The notes beneath the pieces are model-generated. The model had not been told where the DNA came from, searched no databases, and saw only the letters and a list, made by a program, of their open reading frames with translations. A program made the translations under genes and the position numbers. Below are positions 3,308-62,439 of a stretch of DNA of 64,000 nt, piece by piece. Position 1 is the stretch's first letter, and every line of letters begins with the position of its first letter. This DNA comes from an uncultured Myxococcales bacterium (GTDB lineage Bacteria > Myxococcota_A > UBA9042): contig CAIMLR010000047.1 of NCBI GenBank assembly GCA_903842345.1, positions 310,001 to 374,000 of the forward strand, in the 5' to 3' direction.

Positions 3308-4591
3308 ATGGTGAACGTGAAGCAGTTTGTCGGTTTGGTTTGCGCCCTTCAGGCCCTCGCGTTGCCGGCTTGGGCCGACACGTTCGCGGTCGACGCCAAG
3401 CAGATTCGCACGCTCGTGCCGGGCGCCCCGCGCATCGACGAGGGTCGGATCGTCGTGGAGGATGGCAAAATCACGTGTCTCGGCAGTCAGCGCGCGGGTG
3501 CCGGCAAGATGTGCACCCTGCCCGACAAAATCCGCCGGTACGACTACAGCAAGGACGGCATCGTGACGCCGGGATTCATCGAGACGCTGGGCCGAATTGG
3601 CCAGGTCGAGGTGGACGCTGAAGACGGATCGCACGATGGCATCGCCGCCAAGGACAGCAACCTCGCGCACGTGCGGGCGGTCGACGGCATCGCGATGGCG
3701 TCAAGGGCGATGGACGCGGCGCGACTGGGCGGCGTGACGACCGTGCTCGCACGGCCGCTGGGTGGCGCGCTCATCAGCGGCCAGAGCGCGGCGTTCCGCA
3801 CGTCCGGGCTGACTGTAGATGCCGCGCTGGTACAGACCCCGGTGGCGATCCACGTGAATCTGGGCGAGGAGGCGCGTCAGGACATGCCGCTGGTCGGCGC
3901 GCGGTCGGGGCAAATCGCCGTGCTGCGCACGCTGCTGCAGAACGCCCAGCGGCTGGCAGACGCCGACCGGAAGAAGCCCAAAGAGGCCGCAGAAAAGGAG
4001 ACGATTCAGCGCCTGCGCGACGACCCGGGCATCGCCGTGCTGGCGGACCTCGTGTGGCGCAAGAAACTCCCGCTGGTGGTGCACGCGCACCGTTCCGATG
4101 AGATTGCGGCGGCGATGCGGCTGCAAAAGGAACTGGGCTTCAGGCTGGTGATTGCCGGCGGCGCGGAGGCGCACCTGCTCGCGGCGGAGTTGGCGGCGCA
4201 GAAAATCCCGGTGCTGCTGGGGCCGGTGCGGGTGGCGCCGTTTGGCTGGAATACGCGGCAGGCGCGACCTGAAGCCGCGGCGATTCTCCATGCCGCCGGC
4301 GTGCAGCTGGCGTTGGCGACTGCCGAGACCCACAACGCGCGCAACCTGCGCTTTGAGGCGGGCTTTGCGGTTGCGCACGGCCTGCCGGCGGACGTTGCGC
4401 TGGCGGCGATCACGCGTGAGCCGGCGGTGATTCTCGGCTTGCCAGCAGCTGGCACCCTGGGTGTTGGCACGTTGAAAGAAGGCCAACTCGCTGATTTTGC
4501 AGTTTTTGACGGTGAGCCACTGACGTATGACGGCCATACGCGCTTCGTCGCGGCGGCTGGCCAGGCGATCGACGCGCCGCAACAGCGCTAG
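3308..4591 (+). CDS. Exported amidohydrolase-like protein lacking the HxH motif
   Basis: About 427 residues with an N-terminal signal peptide (hydrophobic VGLVCALQALALPAWA, then DTF). The fold matches the imidazolonepropionase-like amidohydrolase group: a small beta domain with GRIVVEDGKI, a TPGFIE segment, a VVHAHRSDE block, and a C-terminal GTLKEGQLADFAVFDGEPL return strand. In active members the PGFxD segment runs into HxH, which binds metal. Here it reads TPGFIETLGRIG, so both histidines are missing, while a later histidine (VVHAH) remains. This suggests a catalytically altered or inactive periplasmic relative. Starts at 3287 (MLKP) and a GTG at 3317 (immediately before the signal peptide, with a GGTGA motif) are also possible. 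The next gene converges from the other strand. Confidence 0.7.
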   Translation: MVNVKQFVGLVCALQALALPAWADTFAVDAKQIRTLVPGAPRIDEGRIVVEDGKITCLGSQRAGAGKMCTLPDKIRRYDYSKDGIVTPGFIETLGRIGQVEVDAEDGSHDGIAAKDSNLAHVRAVDGIAMASRAMDAARLGGVTTVLARPLGGALISGQSAAFRTSGLTVDAALVQTPVAIHVNLGEEARQDMPLVGARSGQIAVLRTLLQNAQRLADADRKKPKEAAEKETIQRLRDDPGIAVLADLVWRKKLPLVVHAHRSDEIAAAMRLQKELGFRLVIAGGAEAHLLAAELAAQKIPVLLGPVRVAPFGWNTRQARPEAAAILHAAGVQLALATAETHNARNLRFEAGFAVAHGLPADVALAAITREPAVILGLPAAGTLGVGTLKEGQLADFAVFDGEPLTYDGHTRFVAAAGQAIDAPQQR

Positions 4592-9034: not shown

Positions 9035-9316
9035 TTCCAGCGTATCAGGCTGACGCCATGACAGGACCGTGACAGTTCCGGCAGAAACCTGTGCCGCCTG
9101 GATCACCGGACCGCCGCTGGCAAAAACCAACAAAACAACGTTGTTCGCGCTCCCGGGTGACGCAAGCCGCCCGGGAGACGCGAATGCGGAGCCAACAGGG
9201 CAAACTTGCGGGTCCGCGCAACGCGGCGTAGTGTCGGGCGCGGCTGCTGGTCTGGCAGCCTACGCGTAGCTATGTCCAGCGGGAGCTATCCCGCCACCAT
9301 TCGATTCGGAGGATCC

Positions 9317-9652
9317 ATGAACGCAAACAACAGCAGCCGCCGCGAATTTCTGTCGCGCCTCGGCATTGGCGCCCTCTCCATCGGCGCGATCGCTGCCGTC
9401 CAGGCGTGCGGCAAGAGCGAAGGCGGCGCCGCGCCCAAGTGCGACGACATGACCGGCGTTGACGACGCGGCGAAGGCCACGCGCGCTTCGCTCAAGTACG
9501 TCGACAAGTCGGCCGACCCCACGAAGACGTGCGGCAAGTGTCTCCAGTACTCGGCCCCGGAAGGCGGCGCGGCGTGCGGCGGCTGCAAGCTGTTCAAAGG
9601 CCCCGTCTCGGCCGATGGCAACTGCCAGGGTTTCGCTCCCAAGCCGGCCTAA
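9317..9652 (+). CDS. High-potential iron-sulfur protein (HiPIP), Tat-exported
   Basis: A 111-residue protein. The N-terminus carries a twin-arginine signal (SRREFLSRLGIG) followed by a hydrophobic stretch ending AVQACG, so it folds with its cluster in the cytoplasm and is exported by Tat; a lipobox-like cysteine may also anchor it. The mature part has the cysteine arrangement CGKC, then ACGGCKLF, then NCQGF, which fits a HiPIP that holds one 4Fe-4S cluster and shuttles single electrons in the periplasm. The ATG at 9317 follows GGAGGATCC. A strong terminator follows at 9670, so it is probably monocistronic. The haem lipoprotein just upstream is a possible redox partner. Confidence 0.85.
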   Translation: MNANNSSRREFLSRLGIGALSIGAIAAVQACGKSEGGAAPKCDDMTGVDDAAKATRASLKYVDKSADPTKTCGKCLQYSAPEGGAACGGCKLFKGPVSADGNCQGFAPKPA

Positions 9653-9669
9653 GCCCTCTGTGATTTCCG

Positions 9670-9713
9670 CCGCGGCCGACCCGGAGCAATCCCGGTCGGC
9701 CGCGGTGTTTTTG
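9670..9713 (+). terminator. Rho-independent terminator after the HiPIP gene
   Basis: A perfect 12-bp stem CCGCGGCCGACC (9670-9681) pairs with GGTCGGCCGCGG (9694-9705) and is followed at once by TGTTTTT. It lies 18 bases after the HiPIP stop. Confidence 0.9.
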
Positions 9714-9776
9714 CCTAATCTTCGCTTGCAGTCCGGAATGCGCCCGGTACCATGGCCACCCGTTGCGGAGCGTAAA

Positions 9777-29699: not shown

Positions 29700-29774
29700 G
29701 CGCGCATAACTCAGCGGTAGAGTATCACCTTCACACGGTGGGAGTCCTAGGTTCAAATCCTAGTGTGCGCACCA
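29700..29774 (+). tRNA. tRNA-Val (anticodon CAC)
   Basis: The cloverleaf folds fully. The acceptor GCGCGCA (29700-29706) pairs with TGTGCGC, the D arm is ACTC/GAGT, and the anticodon stem TCACC/GGTGG has loop TTCACAC, giving anticodon CAC. The T arm is CTAGG-TTCAAAT-CCTAG. CCA is encoded at 29772-29774. It is the apparent integration site of the island on its right, whose integrase gene points towards it. Confidence 0.95.
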
Positions 29775-29981: not shown

Positions 29982-31148
29982 CTATCCCAGCACCCTGCCC
30001 AGCGCCGCCGCCTTGTCCTCCATCGGGATGCTGGCGTAGCGCTCAGTCATCTTGATCGAAGAGTGGCCCATCAATTCCCGAATGGTTATGAGGTCAACGC
30101 CCTCGGAGACGAGGATCGTGTTCAACGACCGCCTCAACACTTGCGGTGTAACCCGCTGACCGACGCCGCGTGCGCCGCTGCAAATGCGGCACGGCTTGGC
30201 CAAAGACTGCTCGACGCGATAGGACTCGCCCTCGGACGGGAACACCAGCGCGCCCTTCCCGTCGTCCCACTGCGGCAGGTCTTTCTTGAGCTGCGCCGTG
30301 TGATGGGCCTTGAGGATCGCAACTAGCTTGGGAACCAGTGGCACCTCGCGCGGCGCGTCCGTCTTGGTGAGTTCCAGTTTGCCGTTCGTCGCGCTGAACT
30401 GCAGCTTGGCGCTCGGATGCGGCCCGTCCAGGCGCACGTCTTTCCAATGGAGGCCGAACGCCTCGCCGGACCGACACCCGGTGTAGGCGAGGAATGTCAG
30501 TTCAGCATGTCGCAGCGGCTGGTGGACCTGGACCGCCGTCAGGAAGGCTTCCAACTGCGGCCTCTTCAAAGTCTTGGTCTCGCGGACGCGGGGTGCCGTG
30601 ACCTTCGGGGCCGTCACGCGCGCGGTCGGGTCGTGCGGCAACCGGTAGCGAGCGACCGCGTCGCGCAGCATGTGCGTCATCGTGCGCCACCAGCCCATCA
30701 CCGTGTCCGGGCTGTATGGCTTGCCCGACTTCTGCTTGTGCCCTTCCGCCCACGCGACCCATTCCTCGACATCCTCCATGTTGACCTCATCAAGGCGCAG
30801 GCTGCCAAGGTCCCGTCCGGCGCGCACCAGGACCGGCAGGCAGTGTTCCTCCAGCCGATGCTTCATCTCAGAGATCACGCTCTCACGGTTGCGTTTCTTC
30901 TTCCGTGCCAGCCACGTGTCGCAGTAGTCGACCACGGTAGGGATTTCCGGCGGCAACGCCGGGTCGTTCGCTGCCAGCGACTCCTTCAGCTCGGCCACCA
31001 GCCGGATCGCGTCCCGCTCGCTCGCGCCCACCGGCAGCATTTGCCGCTTTTCCACCTTCGCCCCGTCGACCAGGCACGATACGCGGACGAACAGCCTGCC
31101 GTCGGGAGCCCGAAACACGTTGCTGTACTTTGTCTTCTTTCCTTTCAT
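29982..31148 (-). CDS. int: Tyrosine site-specific integrase of the island
   Basis: 388 residues. The N-terminal arm- and core-binding regions are followed by the catalytic domain: the first Arg in AYTGCRSGEAFGLHWKDV, then TPQVLRRSLNTILV, LMGHSSIKMTERYASI with the late His and the nucleophile Tyr. The usual HxxR box reads QVLR here, so the first histidine is replaced by Gln, an unusual but not unknown substitution. A CRIC cysteine pair lies before that box. The gene ends about 200 bases from tRNA-Val and reads towards it, as expected of an integrase adjoining its attachment site. The start at 31148 lies inside the upstream HTH frame. Confidence 0.88.
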   Translation of the reverse strand: MKGKKTKYSNVFRAPDGRLFVRVSCLVDGAKVEKRQMLPVGASERDAIRLVAELKESLAANDPALPPEIPTVVDYCDTWLARKKKRNRESVISEMKHRLEEHCLPVLVRAGRDLGSLRLDEVNMEDVEEWVAWAEGHKQKSGKPYSPDTVMGWWRTMTHMLRDAVARYRLPHDPTARVTAPKVTAPRVRETKTLKRPQLEAFLTAVQVHQPLRHAELTFLAYTGCRSGEAFGLHWKDVRLDGPHPSAKLQFSATNGKLELTKTDAPREVPLVPKLVAILKAHHTAQLKKDLPQWDDGKGALVFPSEGESYRVEQSLAKPCRICSGARGVGQRVTPQVLRRSLNTILVSEGVDLITIRELMGHSSIKMTERYASIPMEDKAAALGRVLG

Positions 31149-46804: not shown

Positions 46805-47462
46805 CCCTCCTACCGGAGTCACACTTCGGCCACCCGACCATGCGACTTGTGTAGTTCAACAGACCGCGCCTGACCACTTCTGGGGCCTGCCGCCAGCAGT
46901 CGCGGGTGCCGTGATCACGCTGTTCGCAAACCTGGCTTTCCTGATCATCAGCTACAAGCTGACGAGGGGCGGAAAGTACGATGACCGACGCTACGATGCC
47001 GAGCTGGAACGCTTCAAGGGCCTTGTCGGGATCGGACTGACCAAATATCTCGAAATAATTCGACAAATCGACACCCATTTTGAGGCGTTGCTGCGAGAGG
47101 CTTCCCTTCCGCTGACGGACATCCTCAAAGCCAAGCACAGGACTTTCGACGAGTTGTACGCGCTAGATTCTGATTTTCGCGACTCGACATTGCGCTTGGC
47201 GAGGGTTTATTCCGCGAAACTTCATGCAGAGCTGGAGACGAGATGGGAATCGTATGTCGACCAAACGACGGAGGCGTTGGCAAGCGTTACGAACGTACCG
47301 CAGCAACACCGGATCCCTCGTCAAACTCATTCGGGGAACTCGGACAGGTTTCTGGGCGATGTCTCTGCGATTCTCTCTCGATACGAACCGCATCGCTCTG
47401 ATGCGCCATCGACTTGGCAAAGGATTACGTCATGGTTCCGGTCCAAAAAGACGACCCGCTAA
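46797..47462 (+). CDS. Single-pass membrane protein, putative effector of the GHKL/STAS unit
   Basis: 221 residues with one clear transmembrane segment (about residues 33-53, PAVAGAVITLFANLAFLIISYKL in composition), a short N-terminal outside part and a long helical cytoplasmic part rich in Arg/Glu/Asp. The start overlaps the STAS-like gene, and the stop is 2 bases before the methyltransferase start. Small membrane proteins in such units often act as membrane-damaging effectors in abortive infection, but nothing in the sequence proves it here. Confidence 0.55.
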   Translation: MANPPTGVTLRPPDHATCVVQQTAPDHFWGLPPAVAGAVITLFANLAFLIISYKLTRGGKYDDRRYDAELERFKGLVGIGLTKYLEIIRQIDTHFEALLREASLPLTDILKAKHRTFDELYALDSDFRDSTLRLARVYSAKLHAELETRWESYVDQTTEALASVTNVPQQHRIPRQTHSGNSDRFLGDVSAILSRYEPHRSDAPSTWQRITSWFRSKKTTR

Positions 47463-47464
47463 CA

Positions 47465-49414
47465 ATGTCGGCGGACGTGAGTGCGCACAACGTCGACGCT
47501 CTGCGCGCGCTGTTCCCCGACGCCTTCATTGAAGGGCACATCGACTTCGACGTGCTCAAGCAGCTGCTGGGCGGCGCCGTAGACGAACGGGACGAGAAGT
47601 ACGGGCTGAACTGGCACGGCAAGCGCAAGGCGCGGCAGATCGCGCTGACGCCTTCGACGGGCACGCTGCGACCGTGCCCTACCGAGAGCGTCGACTGGGA
47701 CACGACGCAAAATCTGATGATTGAAGGCGATAACCTGGAGGTGCTCAAACTGCTGCAGAAGAGCTACGCCAGGCAGGTTAAGCTCATCTACATCGACCCG
47801 CCGTATAACACTGGCAACGATTTTGTTTACCCGGACGACTTCCAGGACAGCATCAAGAACTACCTCGAGCTGACGGGTCAAGTCGATGGACAGGGTCGCC
47901 GGATTGGCACGAACACCGAGGCGTCCGGGCGGTTTCACACAGACTGGTTGAACATGATGTATCCGCGGCTGCGGACATGTCGGCAGCTGCTCTCGTCGGA
48001 CGGCGCGATCTTCGTTTCGTGCGACGATTCGGAGAACGCCAATCTCCGGCAGGCCCTTGACGACGTCTTTGGCCCGGAGAACTTTGTTGCGCAGTTCGTC
48101 TGGCGTTCACGCCAGTTTACTGACGCGCGCGCAGTCACGAACGTCTCGACGGATCACGAGTACCTTCTTTGTTACGCGCGCGACTCCGGCTTCGCCATGA
48201 GAGGTGTCGAACGCGACGAGTCGAAGTTCGCGAATCCGGACAACGACTCACGGGGGCCGTGGATGAGCCGGAGTCTCCTCGGGCTGGCAACACGTGAGCA
48301 ACGTCCGAACCTTCACTACGACATTGTCGAGCCGGGAAGTGGCCGGCGATTTCCGCCAAACCCATCGACTGGATGGCGTTATTCGCCGGACAAGATGCAG
48401 TCCCTGATCGCGCAAGGGTGCGTTCTCTTTCCGTCCAAGGACGATGGACGACCGCGCGAGAAGAAGTTTCGGAAGGACATGAACTCAGAGTTCATCGCCT
48501 TCAGGAGCATCGTAGAGGGCACCTACACCGCCGATGGGACGCAGGAAATCCGCGCTCTATTCGGGGCCGAAGTTTTCAGCTATCCGAAGCCGGTCGAGTT
48601 GGTCCGCAAGGTGGTACAACAGGTTGCCGGCGAGTACGACACCGTCATGGACTTCTTCGCCGGATCGGGCACGACTGGGCAGGCGGTTCTCGAGCAAAAC
48701 GCCGCAGACGGTGGTCGACGGCGCTACGTCCTTGTGCAGTTGCCTGAGCCACTCGACCCGCGGAACAAGGACCAGGAAACCGCGGCGATGTACTGTGACA
48801 AGCTGGGCCGCCCTCGTAGTATCGCGGAACTGACAAAAGAACGCCTCCGTCGCGCCAGCGCGAAGATTGGCAGCGCACTGTTGAGCCCAAAGCAGCCCCC
48901 AAAGACTCCTGACTTGTTCGCGGCGACCGAGCCCGTCAAGCCACCACCCGACCTCGGCTTCCGGGTCTTCAAGCTCGCCACCAGCAACATCCAAGCGTGG
49001 GCCCCTGACCGCACCGACATTGCCGGCTCACTCGAAGCCGCCGCAGACCACCTGAAGCAGGACCGCACCGAGCAGGACATCCTGTATGAACTGCTGCTCA
49101 AGCGCGGCCTCGACCTCTGCGTGCCCGTGGAGAGCCGGACCATCGCCGGCAAGCAGGTCCATGCTATCGGCGCCGGCGTGCTCATGACCTGTCTCGCCAC
49201 GCACATCAGCCGCGCCGACGTGGAGCCGCTGGCCATGGGCATCGTCGCCTGGAACAAGGAACTGAACCCCGCGGGCGACGTGCAGGTCATCTTCCGCGAC
49301 AGCGCCTTCGTGGACGACGTCGCCAAGAGCAACCTCACGGCCATCCTCTGCCAGTGCAGCCTGGACGACAAAGGCATCCCGCGGCTGAGCGAGAAGAGCA
49401 TCCGGAGCATCTGA
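47465..49414 (+). CDS. Type III restriction-modification methyltransferase (Mod)
   Basis: 649 residues. The order of motifs is beta-class: the catalytic DPPYNTGNDF (111-120) precedes the SAM-binding DFFAGSGTTG (396-405), as in type III Mod enzymes. The opening NVDALRALFPDAFIEGHIDFDVLKQLLG is the usual Mod N-terminus, and the middle RSRQFTDARAV region would be the target-recognition domain. It methylates adenine in an asymmetric site and supplies specificity to Res. The ATG at 47465 is favoured over upstream in-frame starts that overlap the membrane-protein gene. The stop shares its last base with the ATG of RhuM. Confidence 0.92.
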   Translation: MSADVSAHNVDALRALFPDAFIEGHIDFDVLKQLLGGAVDERDEKYGLNWHGKRKARQIALTPSTGTLRPCPTESVDWDTTQNLMIEGDNLEVLKLLQKSYARQVKLIYIDPPYNTGNDFVYPDDFQDSIKNYLELTGQVDGQGRRIGTNTEASGRFHTDWLNMMYPRLRTCRQLLSSDGAIFVSCDDSENANLRQALDDVFGPENFVAQFVWRSRQFTDARAVTNVSTDHEYLLCYARDSGFAMRGVERDESKFANPDNDSRGPWMSRSLLGLATREQRPNLHYDIVEPGSGRRFPPNPSTGWRYSPDKMQSLIAQGCVLFPSKDDGRPREKKFRKDMNSEFIAFRSIVEGTYTADGTQEIRALFGAEVFSYPKPVELVRKVVQQVAGEYDTVMDFFAGSGTTGQAVLEQNAADGGRRRYVLVQLPEPLDPRNKDQETAAMYCDKLGRPRSIAELTKERLRRASAKIGSALLSPKQPPKTPDLFAATEPVKPPPDLGFRVFKLATSNIQAWAPDRTDIAGSLEAAADHLKQDRTEQDILYELLLKRGLDLCVPVESRTIAGKQVHAIGAGVLMTCLATHISRADVEPLAMGIVAWNKELNPAGDVQVIFRDSAFVDDVAKSNLTAILCQCSLDDKGIPRLSEKSIRSI

Positions 49415-50505
49415 TGACGACGGACGCGGCGCGCGGCACTGGCGAGATCCTTATCTACGCGACTGAGGACGGGCGTACGCGCGTCGAGTGCCGCTTTGAC
49501 GGTGCGACCATCTGGCTGACGCAGGCGCTGATGGCGGACCTGTTCCAGACGACGCCGCAGAACATTACGCTGCACCTGCGTGCGCTTTTCGCGGATGGCG
49601 AAGTCGATGAGGCGGCAACCTGTAAGGAATACTTACAAGTTGCCCAGGAGGGCGCGCGCGAGGTCCGGCGCAGCGTCAAGCACTACAATCTCGATGCCAT
49701 TCTGGCAGTTGGCTACCGCGTGCGGTCTGTCCGCGGCATGCAGTTCCGCCGGTGGGCCACCGAGCACCTGCGCGAGTACCTGGTGAAGGGCTTCACCATG
49801 GACGACGAGCGGTTGCGCAACCCGCCCGTGCGCGGCCTGGGCGTGCCGGACTACTTCGACGAGCTGCTGGAGCGCATCCGCGACATCCGCGCCAGCGAGC
49901 GGCGGATGTACCTGCGCGTGCAGGAGATCTTCACGATGGCGGCGGACTACGGCGCGTCGGCACCTGACACGACCGAGTTCTTCAAGGTCATGCAGAATAA
50001 GTTGCACTTCGCGACGACCGGCAAGACCGCGGCGGAGCTCATCGCCGAACGCGCCGACCACACGCTGCCGAACATGGGGCTGACGAACTTCAAGGGCAGC
50101 ACGGTGCGCAAGGCCGACGTCGGCACCGCCAAGAACTACCTGCAGCAGGACGAGATCTCGGCGCTGAACCTCATCGTGGGCATGTGGCTGGACTTTGCTG
50201 ACGACCAGGCCCGCCGCCGCAAGCAGATCTTCCTGCGCGACTGGGAGACCAAGCTGGACGAGTTCCTGCGCTTCAACGAGCGTGGCGTCCTGCGCAACGC
50301 CGGCACCGTCAGCAACAAGGACGCCACGGCGAAGGCGGAGGCCGAGTACGCCGCATTCTCGGAGCAGCGCCGGACATGGCTTGAAGCACAAGGTGCTGAG
50401 CATGCCGTACACGCCCTGGAAGACGCGGCCAAGGCGCTACCCGCCCGTCGGGCTGCCAGTGTGGCGAAAGCGGGCAGCAAGCCCAAGGAAGGCCGTAAAC
50501 CGTGA
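49414..50505 (+). CDS. RhuM-family protein
   Basis: 363 residues. The N-terminal IWLTQALMADLFQTTPQNITLHLRALFADGEVDE and KHYNLDAILAVGYRVRSVRGMQFRRWATEHLREYLVKGF match the RhuM family, first noted on a Salmonella pathogenicity island and often found between mod and res genes. Its exact role is unknown. The start overlaps mod by one base and the end overlaps res (GTGA), so all three are translationally coupled. Confidence 0.85.
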   Translation: MTTDAARGTGEILIYATEDGRTRVECRFDGATIWLTQALMADLFQTTPQNITLHLRALFADGEVDEAATCKEYLQVAQEGAREVRRSVKHYNLDAILAVGYRVRSVRGMQFRRWATEHLREYLVKGFTMDDERLRNPPVRGLGVPDYFDELLERIRDIRASERRMYLRVQEIFTMAADYGASAPDTTEFFKVMQNKLHFATTGKTAAELIAERADHTLPNMGLTNFKGSTVRKADVGTAKNYLQQDEISALNLIVGMWLDFADDQARRRKQIFLRDWETKLDEFLRFNERGVLRNAGTVSNKDATAKAEAEYAAFSEQRRTWLEAQGAEHAVHALEDAAKALPARRAASVAKAGSKPKEGRKP

Positions 50506-53490
50506 AGCTGCACTTCGAAGCCGACCTCGACTACCAGCAGGCCGCCATCGCGTCTGTTGTCGACCTGTTCCGCGGGCAGGAGATTTGCCGCACCGAGTTC
50601 ACCGTCACGGCGCAGGCCGGTGTGCCGCTTCTCGAGGCCACGGGTGTCGCCGAAAACGTCATGGGCATCGGCAACCGGCTGCAGCTGCTGGACGACCAGA
50701 TCCGCGCCAACCTGCACGGCGTGCAACTGCGCAATGGCCTCGCGGCGTCCAGCAGCCTGGCGTCCGGCGACTTTACTGTCGAGATGGAGACCGGCACCGG
50801 CAAGACCTACGTCTACCTGCGCACCATCTTCGAGCTCAACCGCCAGTACGGCTTCACCAAGTTCGTCATCGTCGTGCCCAGCGTCGCCATCAAAGAGGGC
50901 GTGTACAAGACCCTTGAAATCACGCAGGACCACTTCCGCAGCCTGTACGCTGGCGTGCCGTTCGAGTTCTTCCTGTACGACTCCAGCAAGCTCGGCCAGG
51001 TGCGCAACTTCGCCAGCAGCCCGAACATCCAGGTCATGGTGATGACGGTCGGCGCCATCAACAAGAAGGAAGTCAACAACCTGTACAAGGACAGCGAGAA
51101 AATCAACGGCGAGAAGCCCATCGACCTGATTCGCTCCACCCTGCCCATCCTCATCGTCGACGAGCCGCAGAGCGTGGACGGCGGTTTGGAAGGTCGCGGC
51201 AAGGAAGCGCTGAGCGCGATTGGGGCCGCTGTGCACGCTGCGCTACTCGGCGACGCACGTGGCGAAGCACCACATGCTGTACCGCCTGGACGCGGTCGAC
51301 GCGTACGAGCATAAGCTGGTCAAGCAAATCGAAGTGGCGGCGCTGCAGGTCGAGGGCGGGCACAACAACGCGTACATCAAGCTCGTGTCGACCAGCAATA
51401 AGGGCGGCACGATCAGCGCGCGCCTGGAGCTGGACGTCCAGCAAGGCAAGGCTGTCAGCCGGCAGCTCGTGACGGTGGAGCAAGGGGACGATCTGGCGGA
51501 CCTCACGGGGCGCGCCGTCTACGACAACTGGCGCGTGGACGACATCAGCTGTCGCGCCGGAGACGAGCACGTCGAGCTGAGCAAGCACGAACATCCGCTG
51601 CGTGTGGGCGAGGTTGTCGGCGGCGCGGATGAGGACGAAATCAAGCGGCACATGATTCGCCGCACGATTCGCGAACACCTGGAGAAGGAACTGCGGCTGC
51701 GGCCACAGGGCATCAAGGTGCTGAGCCTGTTCTTCATCGACGCCGTCGCGAACTACCGCACCTACGACGCGGACGGCCAGCCGCAGAAGGGCAAGTTCGC
51801 CACGATGTTCGAGGCGGAGTATCGCAAGGCCGCGAAGGACAGTCGGTACAACGACTTGTTCAAGGGCGTGGACTTGAGCGCCGACGCTGCCGAGGTCCAC
51901 GACGGCTATTTCTCGATCGACAAGGCGGGCCATGTCAGCGACACGGCCGAGAACAACGAGGCGGGCCGGCAGAGCGCGGAGCGCGCCTACAACCTGATTA
52001 TGAAGGACAAAGAGAAGCTGCTGAGCATGGACACCAAGCTCAAGTTCATCTTCTCGCACTCGGCTCTTCGCGAGGGCTGGGACAATCCGAACGTCTTCCA
52101 GATCTGCGTGCTGCGCGACATCGGCACAGAGCTGCGCCGCAGACAGGTCATCGGCCGCGGCCTGCGCCTGTGCGTCAACCAGGCCGGCCAGCGCGTGCGC
52201 GGGTTCGATGTCAACACGCTCACAGTCGTGGCGCGCGAGAGCTACGAGGACTTCGCCAGGACGCTGCAGCACGAGATCGAGGAGAGCACCGGCATCCGCT
52301 TCGGCATCGTGGAGAAGCACCAGTTTGCCAACCTCCCGGTGGTCGGCGCCGACGGCACGACCGAGGCCCTGGGTGTGCAACAGTCCGAGTCGCTGTGGTA
52401 CCACCTCCGCGACACCGACCTCATCGACGGCCACGGCAAGGTGCAGGACAAGCTGCGCACGGCGCTCAAGGACGGCACGCTGGAGCTGCCAGAAGCCGTT
52501 GCGCCGCATGCCGCGGCCATCAAGGAACTGCTGCGCAAGCTCGCGGGGCGCCTGGACGTGAAGAACTCGGACGACCGCAAGCCCATCAAGACGCGGCGCG
52601 CCGTGCTGGACAGCGCCGAGTTCCAGGCGCTGTGGGACCGCATCAAGCACAAGACGACGTACCGCGTCGAGTTCGACAACGAGAAGCTCATCGCCGACTG
52701 CGCCAAGAAGTTGCAGGCGGCGCCGGACGTGACGCGGACGAAGCTGCACATGCGCAAGGCCGACATCGCGATCGGTCGCGGCGGCGTGGTGGCAAATGCG
52801 GTGGCGTTGAACGGCGAAGAGCACATCAACATGAACGCGGAGGCCGTCGACCTGCCGGACCTGCTGACCGAGCTGCAGGACAAGACCCAGCTCACGCGAC
52901 GCAGCCTGGTGCGCATCTTGACGGGCTGTCGACGGCTGGAGGACTTCAAGCGCAACCCGCAGCAGTTCATCGAGATCGCGGTGACGACCATCGTGCTTGC
53001 CAAACGGCACGCCCTAGTGGACGGCATCAAGTACCAGCGCATCGGTGAAGACGCCTACTACGCGCAGGAGTTGTTCGAGCAGCCGGAGCTCGCCGGCTAC
53101 CTGAAGCGCAACATCTTGGAGAACACCAAGAAGTCCGTGTACGAGGACGTCGTCTACGACTCGGCTGGCGTGGAGAAGTCGTTCGCGGAGCAGTTGGAGA
53201 GCAACGTTGCCGTCAAGGTGTACGCGAAGCTGCCGTCGTGGTTCCAGGTGCCGACGCCGCTGGGGACGTACAACCCGGACTGGGCGGTGCTGGTGCAGCA
53301 GGACGGCGGCGAGCGGCTGTACTTCGTCGTGGAGACGAAGGGCACGTTGTTCGCGGATGAGCTGCGGAAGGCCGAGGGCGCGAAGATCGAGTGCGGCAAG
53401 GCGCACTTCGCGGCGCTGGCGCAGGGGCATGATGCTGTGCGGTACATGCAGGCGACGAAGCTGGAGGATGTGTTGGCGGAGGTCGAGTGA
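50502..53490 (+). pseudogene. Type III restriction enzyme Res subunit, interrupted by a one-base frameshift
   Basis: The full product would be about 995 residues. The 5' part has Walker A METGTGKT (95-102) and Walker B IVDEPQSV (D220-E221). At the G run 51222-51225 (GGGG) the frame breaks. With one G fewer, translation continues through GPLCTLRYSATH into the remainder, which carries the helicase C-terminal motifs (ALREGWDNPNVFQICVLRDIG, RQVIGRGLRLCV) and the endonuclease site (NPDWAVL...FVVETKGT). The second frame is intact to the stop at 53490. So Res is either inactivated, subject to slippage, or the extra G is a sequencing error. Without it the system would methylate but not cut. Confidence 0.85.
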
Positions 53491-57643: not shown

Positions 57644-57793
57644 TAAACAGATCGAGAGCCTCGCGCCGCCACCACGGATGAATTGGCGGCCTTCTGCAAA
57701 AACGAGGGCAGTTCTTGGGATAAGAGCCGTGTGCCGGTGGAGTTCGCCGTCACGTAGTGCCCATTTCGTCCCATTTTCAGGAGCTTCTACACC

Positions 57794-58003
57794 ATGCAGA
57801 TCAAAATCCTCCGCCTCGGTCACTCCGCCCGCCATCACGAAGCCGCTGCCGGCGCCACCGTCGGTGAAGTCCTCGACGCCGTCGACCTGCCTGCCGCCGG
57901 CCACGCCATCTCGGTCAACGGCCTCGGCGCCAGCACGACCACCGGCCTCAGCGACGGTGACGTCGTCACGCTGGTCCCCAAGGTCGAGGGCGGCAGCAAG
58001 TAG
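57794..58003 (+). CDS. Ubiquitin-like modifier (beta-grasp, GG-SK end)
   Basis: 69 residues with the beta-grasp pattern of ThiS/MoaD/ubiquitin-like proteins: an opening MQIKILRLG strand, a helix with TVGEVLDAVDL, an AISVNGLGAS strand and a DGDVVTLVPKVEGGSK end. The Gly66-Gly67 pair is followed by Ser-Lys, so the modifier would need trimming to expose GG, and a JAMM peptidase is encoded two genes on. The ATG is preceded by CAGGAG. It is the first gene of the ubiquitin-like operon. ThiS or MoaD itself is unlikely, because no thiamine or molybdopterin gene is nearby. Confidence 0.8.
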   Translation: MQIKILRLGHSARHHEAAAGATVGEVLDAVDLPAAGHAISVNGLGASTTTGLSDGDVVTLVPKVEGGSK

Positions 58004-58034
58004 TCCCTGTCCCGCAACACGATTCGCCGCTGGG

Positions 58035-58058
58035 CCGCATCCGGTGCGTCCGGAGCGG
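58035..58058 (+). other. Intercistronic hairpin 1 (Ubl to E2)
   Basis: CCGC-A-TCCGG / CCGGA-GCGG with loop TGCGT: nine pairs and one bulge, ending 24 bases before the E2-like start. First of four such hairpins in this operon. Confidence 0.75.
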
Positions 58059-58082
58059 TTCGGCTGGCGGGGAGACAACGTC

Positions 58083-59099
58083 ATGCACCATTGTGACCAA
58101 ACCATGGCCGCGTACCTGCTCGACTGGCAGGCAAAGCTCGGCCTGGACATCCGCTACCAGCGCTGGAGTGCGCGCTACACGGACCCGGCGGCGTTTCGCC
58201 GCGAGATTGAACTGCTCGGCCCAATCGCGGGTACGGCAGACGAGTGCCGGCTGCCGTACAAGGACGGCGTCCAGACGGTCAACGTCGTGCACGGCCGGCC
58301 GCACACGGGCGAGCCGGTGGAGTTGGGTATCGACGGCGAGACGTTTGTCGTCGCGTCCGTTGAAGGGCGCCGTGTGCGCTTGGCGTTCGATCTGGAGCGC
58401 CTGTTTGAAGTGCCGGGCGAGATCCAGCCGGGCCTCATCTTGGAAGCCGTACTCGGCGCGGCGCTGCCTCTCGCGGCGACGTACATTCAGGGCTACGACT
58501 GGCAGCGCGAGAAGGCGGAGTTCTCATCGTGGATGGTGTCGTCGGTCGACGGCATGGTCCGCAACTGGAAGAACGCCATCCGCGACAACGAGTACGAAGC
58601 CAACCGGCTCACCAGCCAGATCTCCGGTCTGGTACGCAAGAACGGCGAGTTGCGCGAGCAGATTGTGGCGCTTGAAGCCACGACCCGCCCGGCGCAGGAA
58701 GTCAAAGCCGCGGAAGAGTTCGCGGCGCTGGTCAAGATGATGCCGTCACCGGTCGTCAGCGTCGAAGTCGACTACGGCAAGCTGAGCATCGTGCTCGAGC
58801 CGCTCACCTTGGAGCACGACAGCACCGACTACGCGATGGGCTCGTACACGCTGACGGTGACGGCCGACAAGGTGCACATCTGGTCGGACGGCGGCTTCAG
58901 CTACCCGCATCCGCACGTCAGCAGTGACGGCGTTCCGTGCTGGGGCAACCTCGGGCCGGGCATCGGCAAGCTGCTGGGCGAGGGCCAGTACGCGGCGTTG
59001 GTCAGTGTCATCATCGAGTTCCTGCACAGCTACAACGAGCGCGACGCCTACCGTCACATCGAGACCTGGTCTGAGGACTACAACAGCGACGACGATTAA
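58083..59099 (+). CDS. E2-like ubiquitin-conjugating protein with long N-terminal extension
   Basis: 338 residues. The C-terminal part has a UBC-type active site: HPHVSSDGVPCWGNL (H276, C286), matching the HPN-x4-5-G-x-C-L pattern of E2 enzymes with Cys286 as the thioester residue. It is followed by a helix like that after E2 cysteines (QYAALVSVIIEFLHSYNERDA). The first 210 residues are not recognised. They include a predicted coiled coil (about 150-210: WKNAIRDNEYEANRLTSQISG), so the E2 may be tethered to a target. A normal E2 is about 150-170 residues. The ATG at 58083 follows GGGGAG. Confidence 0.7.
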   Translation: MHHCDQTMAAYLLDWQAKLGLDIRYQRWSARYTDPAAFRREIELLGPIAGTADECRLPYKDGVQTVNVVHGRPHTGEPVELGIDGETFVVASVEGRRVRLAFDLERLFEVPGEIQPGLILEAVLGAALPLAATYIQGYDWQREKAEFSSWMVSSVDGMVRNWKNAIRDNEYEANRLTSQISGLVRKNGELREQIVALEATTRPAQEVKAAEEFAALVKMMPSPVVSVEVDYGKLSIVLEPLTLEHDSTDYAMGSYTLTVTADKVHIWSDGGFSYPHPHVSSDGVPCWGNLGPGIGKLLGEGQYAALVSVIIEFLHSYNERDAYRHIETWSEDYNSDDD

Positions 59100-59121
59100 C
59101 GTCGGACGCGCGAACAAGACG

Positions 59122-59158
59122 GCCCCGGCTGCCCGTGAAGTACGCGGACAGCTGGGGC
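59122..59158 (+). other. Intercistronic hairpin 2 (E2 to JAMM)
   Basis: GCCCCGGCTG (59122-59131) pairs with CAGCTGGGGC (59149-59158): ten pairs including one G-U, with a 17-base loop. It ends 13 bases before the GGAGG of the JAMM gene. Confidence 0.8.
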
Positions 59159-59179
59159 TTTGTCGCTTTTGGAGGCAGC

Positions 59180-59779
59180 ATGAAAGTGAAACAGAACCTG
59201 CGGGTTCGCATCGACGCAGACGCGATGGAGCGCATCTGGCACTGGACCGATTTGGCGGCCGGCGAGTTCTCCTGCCTGGGCACGGTCACGGACGACGTGC
59301 TCGTCGGCAACGTGCAGCTGTTCGACCAGATCTGCACGGCCGCCAGCACGGAGCTGGACCAGGAGGCGCTGGCGAAGTTTCTGGTCACCCACCCGGCGCC
59401 GCAGAACGTGCGGGCATGGTGCCATTCGCATGCACGTCTTGGAGTTTTTTGGTCGCAGCAGGACGAGGCGTGCATCGAGGGCCTGGCGAACGACCAGTGC
59501 CTCGTCAGCATCGTCGTCAACAAGAAGCGCGAGTTCAAGGCGCGGATCGACGTGTGGCAGCCGTTCCGGCTGACGTTCGACGACCTGCCGCTGGAGATCC
59601 GCCTTCCGGACCAGAACCTGCGCGGCGAGTGCGAACGGCTGTTCAACGCGCACGTGGTGGAGATGCAGCCGGTACTGATGCCGGACTGGCGCGGCGGTGT
59701 TCGGCAGCCGCAGCAACAGGGTCAACCGTATCGGGGCGGTTGGCAGGACTTTGACGACGACCTTGCGGACTGGAGGTAG
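59180..59779 (+). CDS. JAB/JAMM-family isopeptidase (deubiquitinase-like)
   Basis: 199 residues. The JAMM zinc site is complete: Glu29 in AAGEFSCLG, then H82-S-H84-x7-S92-x2-D95 in CHSHARLGVFWSQQDEA. Such metalloproteases trim ubiquitin-like precursors or remove them from targets. The C-terminal 50 residues are Gln/Gly/Asp-rich. ATG 59180 follows GGAGG. The gene sits directly before the E1, with 2 bases between. Processing of the GG-SK modifier is the likely job. Confidence 0.85.
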   Translation: MKVKQNLRVRIDADAMERIWHWTDLAAGEFSCLGTVTDDVLVGNVQLFDQICTAASTELDQEALAKFLVTHPAPQNVRAWCHSHARLGVFWSQQDEACIEGLANDQCLVSIVVNKKREFKARIDVWQPFRLTFDDLPLEIRLPDQNLRGECERLFNAHVVEMQPVLMPDWRGGVRQPQQQGQPYRGGWQDFDDDLADWR

Positions 59780-59781
59780 CG

Positions 59782-60405
59782 ATGAACTTTCACAGACAGC
59801 TTGACGTACTGGACGTGCCGCGGCTCGCGCGGACGCCCATCACGGTCATTGGCGCGGGCGCGGTGGGCAGCTTCACCGTGCTGGCGTTGGCGAAGTGCGG
59901 CGCCACCGACATCACGGTCTGGGACGACGACAGCGTCGAGAGCCACAACCTGCCGAACCAGTGGTACCGCCTCACGGACCTAGGGCGGCCAAAGGTGCAG
60001 GCATTGAAGGCGTTGGTGCTGGAGATGACGGGCGTGGACATCAAGGTCGCGCAGGAACGCTTCCAGGGCGACGGCGCGACTGAGGTGACGATCTGCTGCG
60101 TCGACAGCATGGACATCCGGATTGCGCTTTGGGGGCAACTTCATCCACGGCCAACGCTCTACGTTGACGCGCGGATGGGAGCTGAGGTCGGCAAGGTCAT
60201 GTGCGTGGGCGCGTTTGGAAGCTGGTATGAAGAAACGCTGCACCCCAGCTCTGAGGCTCACCGCGCACCCTGCACGGCGCGGGCGACCATGTATTGCGCC
60301 AGCGGCCTCGCAGCCTTCATCGCCGGCCAAGTGGCGAACTACGCCAGCGACCGGCCCACCCGGGAAGAGATGACCGTGGATTTTCACAACGGAATCATTC
60401 TCTAA
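59782..60405 (+). CDS. E1-like activating enzyme (ThiF/UBA family), short form
   Basis: 207 residues. The Rossmann motif TVIGAGAVGS (G24-x-G26-x2-G29) binds ATP. DDDSVESHNLPNQWYRLTDLGRPK has the Asp/Arg/Lys pattern of E1 adenylation sites. TICCVDSMDIRIAL carries the later conserved Asp, and YVDARMGAEVG follows. Candidate thioester cysteines are C164 (APCTARATMYC) and C172. It lacks a separate catalytic-cysteine or ubiquitin-fold domain, so it is a minimal E1. It should adenylate the GG end of the modifier and pass it on to the E2-like protein. Confidence 0.85.
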   Translation: MNFHRQLDVLDVPRLARTPITVIGAGAVGSFTVLALAKCGATDITVWDDDSVESHNLPNQWYRLTDLGRPKVQALKALVLEMTGVDIKVAQERFQGDGATEVTICCVDSMDIRIALWGQLHPRPTLYVDARMGAEVGKVMCVGAFGSWYEETLHPSSEAHRAPCTARATMYCASGLAAFIAGQVANYASDRPTREEMTVDFHNGIIL

Positions 60406-60564: not shown

Positions 60565-60963
60565 ATGAAACCTTTAATAAAGGCGTCGGGTGACGTACTG
60601 GACGCGCTGACGGCGGGTCTGGACGTTGGCGGTGCGCGCAAGATCGACAACGGCGGCTACATGGCGGTGCATGTGGACCGGCTGAGCCTCGCGACCTTCA
60701 GCGTGGCCCACTACTTCCAGCAGAACGGCGACCAGGTGTGCGACCCGGACGGCGTGTTCCTGAGGACCGCCGCGGGCTGGCTGCCGGTGACGCTGCAGCT
60801 CAGCACGGGACATTACACGGTCGCCGTCGAACTGGACGGCGACGACAAGCCCACTGCTTGGCGTCCGCGGCAATACCGCGAGCTGCAAGCGTTTGCCGCG
60901 ATGTGGCTGCGCAACATCCGCGAGCAGCAAGGCGGCATCGCTAGGATTCTGACGAGCAAGTGA
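60565..60963 (+). CDS. DUF6908-like mobile-element protein
   Basis: 132 residues. The segments YMAVHVDRLSLATFSVAHYFQQNGDQVCDPDGVFL and PRQYRELQAFAAMWLRNIREQQGG resemble the DUF6908 family, known from integrative elements and plasmids with no assigned role. It is close to the recombination genes that follow. The ATG at 60565 follows GAGGAG. Confidence 0.6.
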   Translation: MKPLIKASGDVLDALTAGLDVGGARKIDNGGYMAVHVDRLSLATFSVAHYFQQNGDQVCDPDGVFLRTAAGWLPVTLQLSTGHYTVAVELDGDDKPTAWRPRQYRELQAFAAMWLRNIREQQGGIARILTSK

Positions 60964-61029: not shown

Positions 61030-61644
61030 ATGGACAACGACAAGATGCGGCTGCTGACGCGGCCGTTCAACGACATCAAGACGCGCCCCGGGCGCAACGG
61101 CCAGAGCATCAACTACGTGGAGGCGCACAGCATCGTGCAGCGCCTCAATGACGCGCTGGCGGGCGACTGGAGCTTCCGCGTGCTGGAGCGCGAGCTCCTC
61201 GACGGTGAGGTCATCGTGCTGGGCGAGCTGCGCGCGGGCGACGTGGTCAAGCAGGCGTTTGGCGGTTCGGAAGTGACCAAGACCCGCGACGGCAAGATCG
61301 TCAGCTTGGCCGATGACCTGAAGAGCGCCGCGACGGACGCGCTCAAGAAGGCGGCGACGCTGATGGGCGTGGCGCTGCAGCTGTACGGCGTGGAAGAGCC
61401 CGTGACGCCCAGCGTGCCTCGTTTGGTGCCGCCGGTGCAGGACGGCGACGAGCCGGATGTGCCGCCAAACAACCGCCTGACGCGCAAGCAAGCCGAGTTC
61501 ATCGCCCGGTTGGCGCGTGAACGCGGCATGGCGAAAGGCGAGGTGGACGCGCTGGCGCGTGAGCGGCACGGCACCGCGGCCAACTTCTTGAGCGTCAAAC
61601 AGGCGTCCGAGTTCATCAAACAGCTGCGGCAAGACGCGGCGTAA
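61030..61644 (+). CDS. Rad52/DdrA-family single-strand annealing protein
   Basis: 204 residues. The N-terminal region, from INYVEAHSIVQRLNDALAGDWSFRV through LADDLKSAATDALKKAATLMGVALQLYG, is the Rad52/Rad22 core found in phage recombinases and bacterial DdrA. The C-terminal 70 residues are a helical tail (RLTRKQAEFIARLARERG). It anneals single-stranded DNA during strand invasion-free recombination. The neighbouring nuclease is the likely resecting partner. ATG 61030 follows GGAGGTG. Confidence 0.8.
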   Translation: MDNDKMRLLTRPFNDIKTRPGRNGQSINYVEAHSIVQRLNDALAGDWSFRVLERELLDGEVIVLGELRAGDVVKQAFGGSEVTKTRDGKIVSLADDLKSAATDALKKAATLMGVALQLYGVEEPVTPSVPRLVPPVQDGDEPDVPPNNRLTRKQAEFIARLARERGMAKGEVDALARERHGTAANFLSVKQASEFIKQLRQDAA

Positions 61645-61656
61645 CGGGAGGTCGCG

Positions 61657-62439
61657 ATGGAGTTCTTGCGTAGCGCGCCCAGGACGGACCTGCACGTGTC
61701 AGTTAGCCAAATCAAGTGCTTCCAGATGTGCCCGAAAAAGTACTTCTGGCGGTACGTCCTGGGCGCAGAGGCTGAGCACCGCAGCGCCAATCTGGTGCTC
61801 GGCAGCGCGGTGCATGAGGCGTTGGCGAGCTACTACAGCGCCATCCGCAACGGCAAGGTGCCGGTGGCGGAAGGCGTGCTGGCGGCGTTCAGTGACGCGT
61901 TTGACGATGAAGTGGCCAAAGAGCCGGCGATCTTGCTGGATGACGGTCTGACGATCGGCGTGCTGAAGGACAGCGGCGTCGCGCTCGTCAGCGCGTTTCT
62001 TGCTGGGGTGAAACCGCCGGATCGCGTCTTCTCGGTGGAGAGCGCGTTTGCCTGTGATGTTGTGACGCCAGAAACGGGCGAGGTGCTGGAAGAGCAGCTC
62101 ATCGGGTACCTCGACGCGGTCGTGGAAGACGCCGGCAAGCTGGTGGTGCTGGAGCACAAGACGGCGGCGCGGGCATGGTCGGCGGATCAGCTGGAGTATG
62201 ACCTGCAGGTCGGCATCTATCTGGCCGTGACGGGAGCGGAGCTGGTGCGGCTGCAAGTCCTGACGAAGACCAAGGTGGCGCGGATGCTGGTGCACGACCT
62301 AGTGCGGAGCGAGGCCGCGCAGGTGGAAGCGGTGAGCGTCGTGTGCCAGGTGCTGAAGGCGATACGCGCGGGCGCCTTCTGGCACAACCGCGGCTGGGGC
62401 TGTAAGGAGTGCGAGTTTCGGGCGCGGCGTGCGGCTTGA
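61657..62439 (+). CDS. PD-(D/E)XK nuclease, Cas4/RecB-like
   Basis: 260 residues. The RecB-type nuclease site is complete: LGSAVHEAL with His53, GYLDAVV with Asp153, LEHKTA with Glu166 and Lys168, then the Gln/Tyr motif DLQVGIYL. Cysteines C21, C25 near the start and C249, C252 near the end fit the four-cysteine iron-sulfur cluster of Cas4 and AddB. With the Rad52-like protein it forms an exonuclease-annealase pair like those of phage recombination systems. No Cas1/Cas2 or repeats are nearby, so a CRISPR role is unlikely. The ATG follows GGGAGG. Confidence 0.85.
   Translation: MEFLRSAPRTDLHVSVSQIKCFQMCPKKYFWRYVLGAEAEHRSANLVLGSAVHEALASYYSAIRNGKVPVAEGVLAAFSDAFDDEVAKEPAILLDDGLTIGVLKDSGVALVSAFLAGVKPPDRVFSVESAFACDVVTPETGEVLEEQLIGYLDAVVEDAGKLVVLEHKTAARAWSADQLEYDLQVGIYLAVTGAELVRLQVLTKTKVARMLVHDLVRSEAAQVEAVSVVCQVLKAIRAGAFWHNRGWGCKECEFRARRAA

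Follow-up and report, generated by a model that had tools for sequence, protein, structure and literature searches.

Introduction

Several bacterial operons encode the components of a ubiquitin-like protein (Ubl) conjugation pathway. BilABCD, which is found near defence genes, encodes Ubl, E2, JAMM and E1 in a single operon, each by its own gene, and its JAMM enzyme matures the Ubl. The Bil Ubl has two consecutive domains, the E2 bears a CEHH signature, and the E1 combines an inactive and an active adenylation domain with a Cys domain (PMC11354881). The PRTRC operons, taken here as operon type 6d of Iyer et al., 2006 (PMC1779556), are located on large plasmids and contain separate Ubl, E2, JAB and E1 genes in that relative order, with a gene for the alpha-helical F between Ubl and E2 and genes for ParB and E upstream. 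Bub operons encode Ubl, E2, a deubiquitinase and E1, and their regulators, like those of the cyclic oligonucleotide-based antiphage signalling system (CBASS), are often located directly downstream of restriction-modification (R-M) systems (PMC13373217). In type II CBASS (Cap2/Cap3; operon types 6A/6B), E1 and E2 are fused, a cGAS/DncV-like nucleotidyltransferase (CD-NTase) or a metallo-beta-lactamase is encoded, and there is no Ubl gene. Here, we analysed a 64,000-nucleotide stretch (hereafter the window) of contig CAIMLR010000047.1 from an uncultured Myxococcales bacterium, which contains a four-gene cassette for a Ubl, an E2-like protein, a JAB/JAMM metalloprotease and a minimal E1. The cassette probably constitutes a complete Ubl conjugation and deconjugation pathway of mobile, defence-carrying islands, for which we infer a role and targets from its gene content and surroundings.

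The four-gene cassette

The four open reading frames (ORFs) were found consecutively on the plus strand, exactly at the positions given in a preliminary description of this DNA (Table 1). Each start is preceded by a Shine-Dalgarno-like sequence (CAGGAG, GGGGAG, TTGGAGG and CTGGAGG for Ubl, E2, JAB and E1, respectively), in agreement with the good ribosome sites reported there, and the gap between the Ubl and E2-like genes is 79 bp. All the residues listed in that description, including the VEGGSK end of Ubl, C286 of the E2-like protein, the JAMM site and G24-x-G-x2-G of E1, were recovered by script. A search for the same gene order in other genomes had been suggested as a check, and the order Ubl-E2-JAB-E1 was kept at 16/16 complete four-gene loci, with the catalytic residues of all four proteins (HPH-x7-C of E2, the JAMM site, C164 of E1 and GG of Ubl) invariant across about 30-96% identity. 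Because of this recurrence with invariant catalytic residues in such divergent copies, the cassette is not a chance arrangement.

Comparison between copies revealed that the non-synonymous divergence (dN) was well below the synonymous divergence (dS) in all four genes, with values of about 0.05-0.10 and 0.46-1.47 for the E2 gene, although the ratios are rough because dS is near saturation. Judged from these sequences, the cassette is under purifying selection. Some copies are truncated or interrupted, such as those with an insertion in the nuclease gene of locus L033 or with E2 fragments at G059:C40, which would agree with a decaying accessory operon carried passively on islands without any function. 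Considering the low dN in every gene and the catalytic residues intact in all complete copies, we regard this explanation as extremely improbable.

Ubl, JAB and E1 proteins

Scanning of the Pfam, NCBIfam, PHROGs and PADLOC libraries showed that Pfam recognises Ubl as ThiS (PF02597, 2.4e-8, 34.8 bits, cut-off 22.5) and E1 as a single ThiF domain (PF00899, 3.1e-17, 63 bits, cut-off 28.1), and returned no convincing model match for the E2-like protein or JAB. When family profiles were compared with solved structures, the closest relatives were SAMP2 and PF1061 for Ubl (about 1e-5), RPN11 for JAB (7e-4) and UBA7 for E1 (1.7e-12), which indicates a likeness to the archaeal SAMP/UbaA and eukaryotic pathways. 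To our knowledge, archaeal SAMP conjugation uses no E2, and the eukaryotic E1 is far larger than the E1 of the cassette.

The GG of the Ubl C-terminus was invariant in the family alignment; one relative stops exactly at GG, and others carry 1-2 variable residues beyond it. In JAB, E29, H82, H84, S92 and D95 were invariant in 14 sequences. For E1, residues G24, G26, G29, D48, D50, K71, D108, D129 and C164 were confirmed by script, C164 was invariant in 13 sequences, and the G24-x-G-x2-G motif was invariant as well; the APCTAR sequence around C164 resembles the PxCT motif of eukaryotic E1s. The cassette therefore displays the general features of prokaryotic Ubl cassettes, namely a beta-grasp Ubl with GG, a ThiF-fold E1 with an ATP motif and a conserved cysteine, and a full JAMM site.

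The membership of Ubl in the ThiS family and of E1 in the ThiF family would also suit a sulfur-carrier pathway (ThiS/ThiF/JAB) resembling CysO-Mec+ cysteine synthesis or siderophore sulfuration, in which no protein is tagged, and some sulfur pathways do use a JAMM protease. However, a protein with an E2-type HPH-x7-C is invariant in the set, the context is mobile and multi-copy, and no gene next to the copies read could be recognised as one for a cysteine synthase, a sulfurtransferase or the thiazole/molybdopterin group, which makes a sulfur carrier very unlikely in our view.

The E2-like protein

The E2-like protein consists of an N-terminal region, a long predicted helix and a C-terminal domain with a putative ubiquitin-conjugating (UBC) fold, which harbors HPH-x7-C286. 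Residues H276, P277, H278, G283, P285 and C286 were invariant in 17 sequences, and the spacing of the motif is that of the classical E2 motif HPN-x7-C. Secondary structure was predicted in the order helix, strands, active-site loop and helices. The structure models were of low confidence (predicted local distance difference test, pLDDT, 47 for the full length and 63 for the C-terminal domain). Foldseek searches with these models returned nothing significant, and VIA-align gave Z <=6 with unrelated folds ranked first, the weak matches including a few E2s (UbcH7, Atg10 and UBE2L6). Since the models are too weak and the fold searches indecisive, nothing is claimed from them beyond the secondary-structure order, and a UBC fold is proposed on the basis of the motif and the position in the operon.

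Zero matches to E2 families and a low-confidence model without a clear E2 match would also be expected if the 338-residue protein were not an E2, with C286 having a structural role or serving another chemistry, and with a pathway that leads from E1 to the target and is merely reversed by JAB. Against this stand the classical and invariant spacing of HPH-x7-C, the operon position equal to that of E2 in Bil and PRTRC, the predicted order of secondary-structure elements, and the presence of the three E2s among the weak structural matches. We consider it quite unlikely that the protein is something other than an E2.

Distant members of this family (L051 5617-7059; L054; L055) carry a Cys/His-rich C-terminal extension, which is possibly zinc-binding and perhaps E3-like, and the window copy is without one.

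Comparison with described systems

The cassette resembles BilABCD in its operon of four separate genes, its JAMM enzyme and its nearby defence genes. In contrast to BilA, the cassette Ubl of 69 aa has one ThiS domain; the CEHH positions of Bil (E at C+6, H at C+8 and C+13) are occupied by P, I and G relative to C286; and the E1 of 207 aa is a single ThiF domain where that of Bil is multi-domain. With its single Ubl, missing CEHH and small E1, the cassette was rejected as a member of Bil. Type II CBASS shares with the cassette a JAMM protease and an E1-like fold for adenylation (hhalign 2.7e-13 against a plasmid CBASS E1), whereas the cassette encodes a Ubl and keeps E1 and E2 separate at all loci. 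In the surroundings of the window copy and of the other copies read, no gene was recognised as a CD-NTase, and this, together with the lack of an E1-E2 fusion, led us to reject membership in type II CBASS.

The PRTRC operons are similar to the cassette in relative gene order, in the separation of the genes and in their location on mobile DNA. Their E1 was the nearest among the bacterial comparators tried (hhalign 1.2e-17 over 150 columns including GxGxxG and the candidate cysteine region), and their JAB aligned weakly with that of the cassette (hhalign 1.1e-4); no profile match was found between the Ubl and E2 proteins of the two systems. Unlike the PRTRC operons, the cassette has only the short gap between Ubl and E2, with no F gene in it, and the genes upstream are unrelated to ParB and E. 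The PRTRC JAB has an extra N-terminal domain and the cassette JAB is shorter; the PRTRC Ubl is without the terminal GG that is invariant in the cassette; and the PRTRC E2 lacks an upstream HP-H and has a conserved His after the Cys, whereas H276 and H278 precede C286. Furthermore, the cassette E1 scored 37.1 bits with the NCBIfam model PRTRC_ThiF, far below its curated cut-off of 144.75. Membership in PRTRC/6d was rejected on the basis of the missing F, E and ParB genes, the different E2 and Ubl signatures, the shorter JAB and this score.

The Bub operons share the Ubl/E2/deubiquitinase/E1 composition, and the BubCD of Citrobacter gave a weak E1 profile match (4.5e-5). In the solved BubCD, a single chain comprises 458 residues, in contrast to the separate JAB and E1 genes of the cassette; the comparison with Bub is incomplete. 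No Bub chain was named among the structure matches of the cassette Ubl or JAB. Leaving Bub aside, the cassette fits, by its sequence features, no described bacterial Ubl system among those testable (Bil, PRTRC and type II CBASS). The preliminary description had proposed a separate subtype distinct from BilABCD and type II CBASS; the distinction from these two was borne out, but PRTRC, with the same gene order and the nearest E1, and Bub had been left out of consideration. If it operates in the proposed way, the pathway would represent a further type of bacterial Ubl conjugation, one whose E2 motif (HPH-x7-C) is eukaryote-like and whose E1 is very small, and would provide a minimal form of the E1-E2 relay for reconstitution.

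Distribution and island context

Searching with the E2 profile revealed the family in 13 of the 379 sampled Myxococcota genomes, the named relatives of the source genome being metagenome-assembled genomes of uncultured Myxococcales. Four copies are present in the genome of the window, and 3-6 matches were obtained in each further genome of the genus. Copies within one genome were often less alike than copies across species or genera. In a tree of the concatenated proteins, in which several forks are weakly supported, they clustered across genomes by the module classes A and B described below and not by genome, as expected for circulating modules. Among 50,697 phage and 72,556 plasmid records and in viral contigs, no E2 relative was detected, and a phage or plasmid origin was rejected accordingly. 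Two loci of the distant genome G059 holding Ubl-E2-JAB (L054 and L055) are near-identical, and the E2 fragments mentioned above come from the same genome.

The window copy resides on an island of about 57 kb, which begins at a tRNA-Val gene with an adjoining tyrosine integrase gene (Table 1). No right end was detected in the 18 kb next to the window; an 84-nt repeat (95%) of the tRNA-Val 3′ part and flank was located at C47:396748-396831, 22.7 kb past the end of the window. In the sister genome G001, integrase homologues of 70 and 86% DNA identity lie beside the same tRNA-Val sequence on contig C128, where an exact 46-nt repeat of the same tRNA end delimits an island of 31 kb; besides the Ubl module, this island carries an integrase and a type I R-M system. 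Both islands thus have the hallmarks of integrative islands, namely an integrase at a tRNA gene and the tRNA 3′ end repeated on the opposite side. DNA comparison of the window and G001 regions showed that the integrase/tRNA region and the module are their only common parts. At distant loci, an integrase was found beside a transfer-messenger RNA (tmRNA) gene (L051) or a tRNA-Glu gene (L052), with no convincing direct repeat next to either, and integrases were located no more than about 12 kb from the class B copies on C42 and C7. At G001:C128 (L089/L056/L098), another integrase is located immediately beyond the 46-nt repeat that delimits the tRNA-Val island, and two elements may stand there in tandem.

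Module classes and the upstream element

In class A modules, to which the window copy belongs, E1 is followed by DUF6908 at the loci whose contig reaches that far, then by a Rad52-like protein and usually a PD-(D/E)XK nuclease. Homology between class A copies stops at about the end of the nuclease gene, and the conserved block of the window copy accordingly extends to 62439; this extension, the multiple copies and the island location all lie outside what the preliminary description had covered. At L033 (G003:C280, 3713-9764), the two matching parts of the nuclease gene (3713-3796 and 9057-9764) are separated by about 5.3 kb of other DNA. In class B modules, genes for a helix-turn-helix protein, a Replic_Relax protein and a TraD/HerA-like ATPase lie on the 5′ side, and those for a DnaG/Toprim primase-like protein and a SprT-like metalloprotease lie on the 3′ side. 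The SprT-like and primase-like partners were located at L046 9616-17323 and L048 10826-18111. In eukaryotes, relatives of SprT cleave DNA-protein crosslinks and are controlled by ubiquitin, and by analogy a functional link between this partner and the Ubl pathway is possible.

Homology between class A copies begins abruptly at a two-box element in front of Ubl. The sequence GCAAAA-N17/18-ATAAG was present 65-95 bp 5′ of the Ubl start in 13/13 class A loci tested and absent at 6/6 class B loci, and it has one match in the window, where 0.05 are expected by chance. Its position and two-box layout suggest that it acts as a promoter, and the abrupt start of homology may mark a site of cargo exchange. 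On the G001 island, two more matches were found, one before a small ORF and the other before an excisionase-like gene that is followed by the integrase gene. A more specific proposal is that Ubl tagging is a core, co-regulated part of the island, which would have a promoter class in common with the excision/integration genes, would control excision, transfer or recombination of island DNA, and would thereby aid the swapping of defence systems at a fixed junction just 5′ of Ubl; we put it forward tentatively, as a rather unlikely scheme.

Defence neighbours

Defence genes were found 5′ of Ubl at 9/10 class A loci for which the sequence extended far enough, all but C17; this is a plain count over loci that are partly dependent, as L038/L039 and L023/L028 have common neighbours. 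These include the type III R-M system of the window, type I R-M systems at three loci, BrxB/BrxC of bacteriophage exclusion (BREX) at two loci, a DUF1156 methyltransferase with a PLD-helicase, and DNA methyltransferases. In other genera, Thoeris genes lie 5′ of the cassette at L051 and a methyltransferase gene at L088. The cassette is well supported, both as a set of genes and as an island-borne, multi-copy, defence-adjacent module.

This adjacency, in other genera as in class A, raises the question of whether the cassette is a dedicated Bil-like anti-phage operon of defence islands, whose Ubl would be attached to structural or replication proteins of the phage and spoil the progeny. Its A-B-C-D composition is the same as that of Bil, and the regulators of CBASS and Bub operons show a similar position downstream of R-M systems. 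On the other hand, class B copies have transfer and replication partners in place of defence neighbours, and Rad52, the nuclease and DUF6908 travel with the cassette while the defence systems do not. Moreover, no effector or sensor gene was seen, and the adjacency could reflect merely islands with defence cargo. An anti-phage operon is a serious possibility, but one that we lean against.

Proposed pathway and role

A mechanism can be drawn from the established chemistry of the Ubl, E1, E2 and JAB families. The JAB protease would trim the one or two residues beyond the GG of Ubl, and the minimal E1 would adenylate the GG end and then hold Ubl as a thioester on C164. From there, Ubl would pass to C286 of the E2-like protein, which would join it to target lysines, with its extra N-terminal and helical region possibly picking the targets; no E3 gene was seen with the cassette. 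JAB would also take Ubl off the targets again. In class A islands, this putative pathway is encoded together with the Rad52-type annealing protein and the nuclease, behind the promoter-like element and with an exchangeable defence system next to it; its class B counterpart is located among replication and DNA-transfer genes. Its likely role is the control of island DNA processing, such as excision, transfer, recombination or the stripping of proteins from DNA, and it may possibly give a side benefit against phage. Taken as a whole, the reading of the four genes as a self-contained Ubl conjugation and deconjugation pathway of mobile islands that likely controls the processing of island DNA is, in our estimate, about evenly poised.

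Several observations weigh against it. No Pfam E2 family matches any member of the E2-like family, neither UQ_con nor Prok-E2_B gives a match in four genomes carrying it, and the UBC-fold models are weak, as described above. Two loci of G059 have Ubl-E2-JAB with no E1 nearby, and the family E1s of this genome sit elsewhere (C75:19353-19997 and C6:42646-43287). The upstream element was sought before the integrase gene of the window island itself and was not found there. Finally, the strong defence neighbourhood fits a defence function equally well. The repeated coupling of the cassette to islands, to Rad52/nuclease pairs and to an exchangeable defence neighbour links the proposed protein tagging to the movement and cargo swapping of defence islands.

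Features of the window island

The coordinates of the cassette and of the other island features are collected in Table 1.

Table 1. Features of the cassette and of its island, in window positions.
Feature	Position	Strand	Remarks
Ubl	57794..58003	+	69 aa, single beta-grasp, GG then SK
E2-like protein	58083..59099	+	338 aa, HPH-x7-C286
JAB/JAMM metalloprotease	59180..59779	+	E29, H82, H84, S92, D95
Minimal E1, ThiF-fold adenylating enzyme	59782..60405	+	207 aa, candidate catalytic C164 in APCTAR
DUF6908 protein, class A module	60565..60963	+	PF21849 9.4e-20
Rad52-like annealing protein, class A module	61030..61644	+	PF04098 5.3e-8; conserved downstream
PD-(D/E)XK (RecB/Cas4-like) nuclease, class A module	61657..62439	+	PF12705 2.6e-26
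Promoter-like element GCAAAA-N18-ATAAGA	57696..57725	+	Start of homology between class A copies
Type III R-M Mod subunit, island cargo	47414..49414	+	PF01555 3.8e-30
Type III Res subunit, island cargo	50502..53490	+	Overlapping ORFs 50502-51314 and 51220-53490; RE_endonuc 5.9e-37 on the second
tRNA-Val, island left end (attachment site)	29700..29774	+	ARAGORN
Tyrosine integrase of the island	29982..31148	-	PF00589 5e-18; adjoins tRNA-Val

The presence of Res in two overlapping frames suggests a frameshift or an assembly error in the R-M system of the window. A RhuM-family protein is encoded between Mod and Res at 49354-50505 (PF13310, 1.7e-109).

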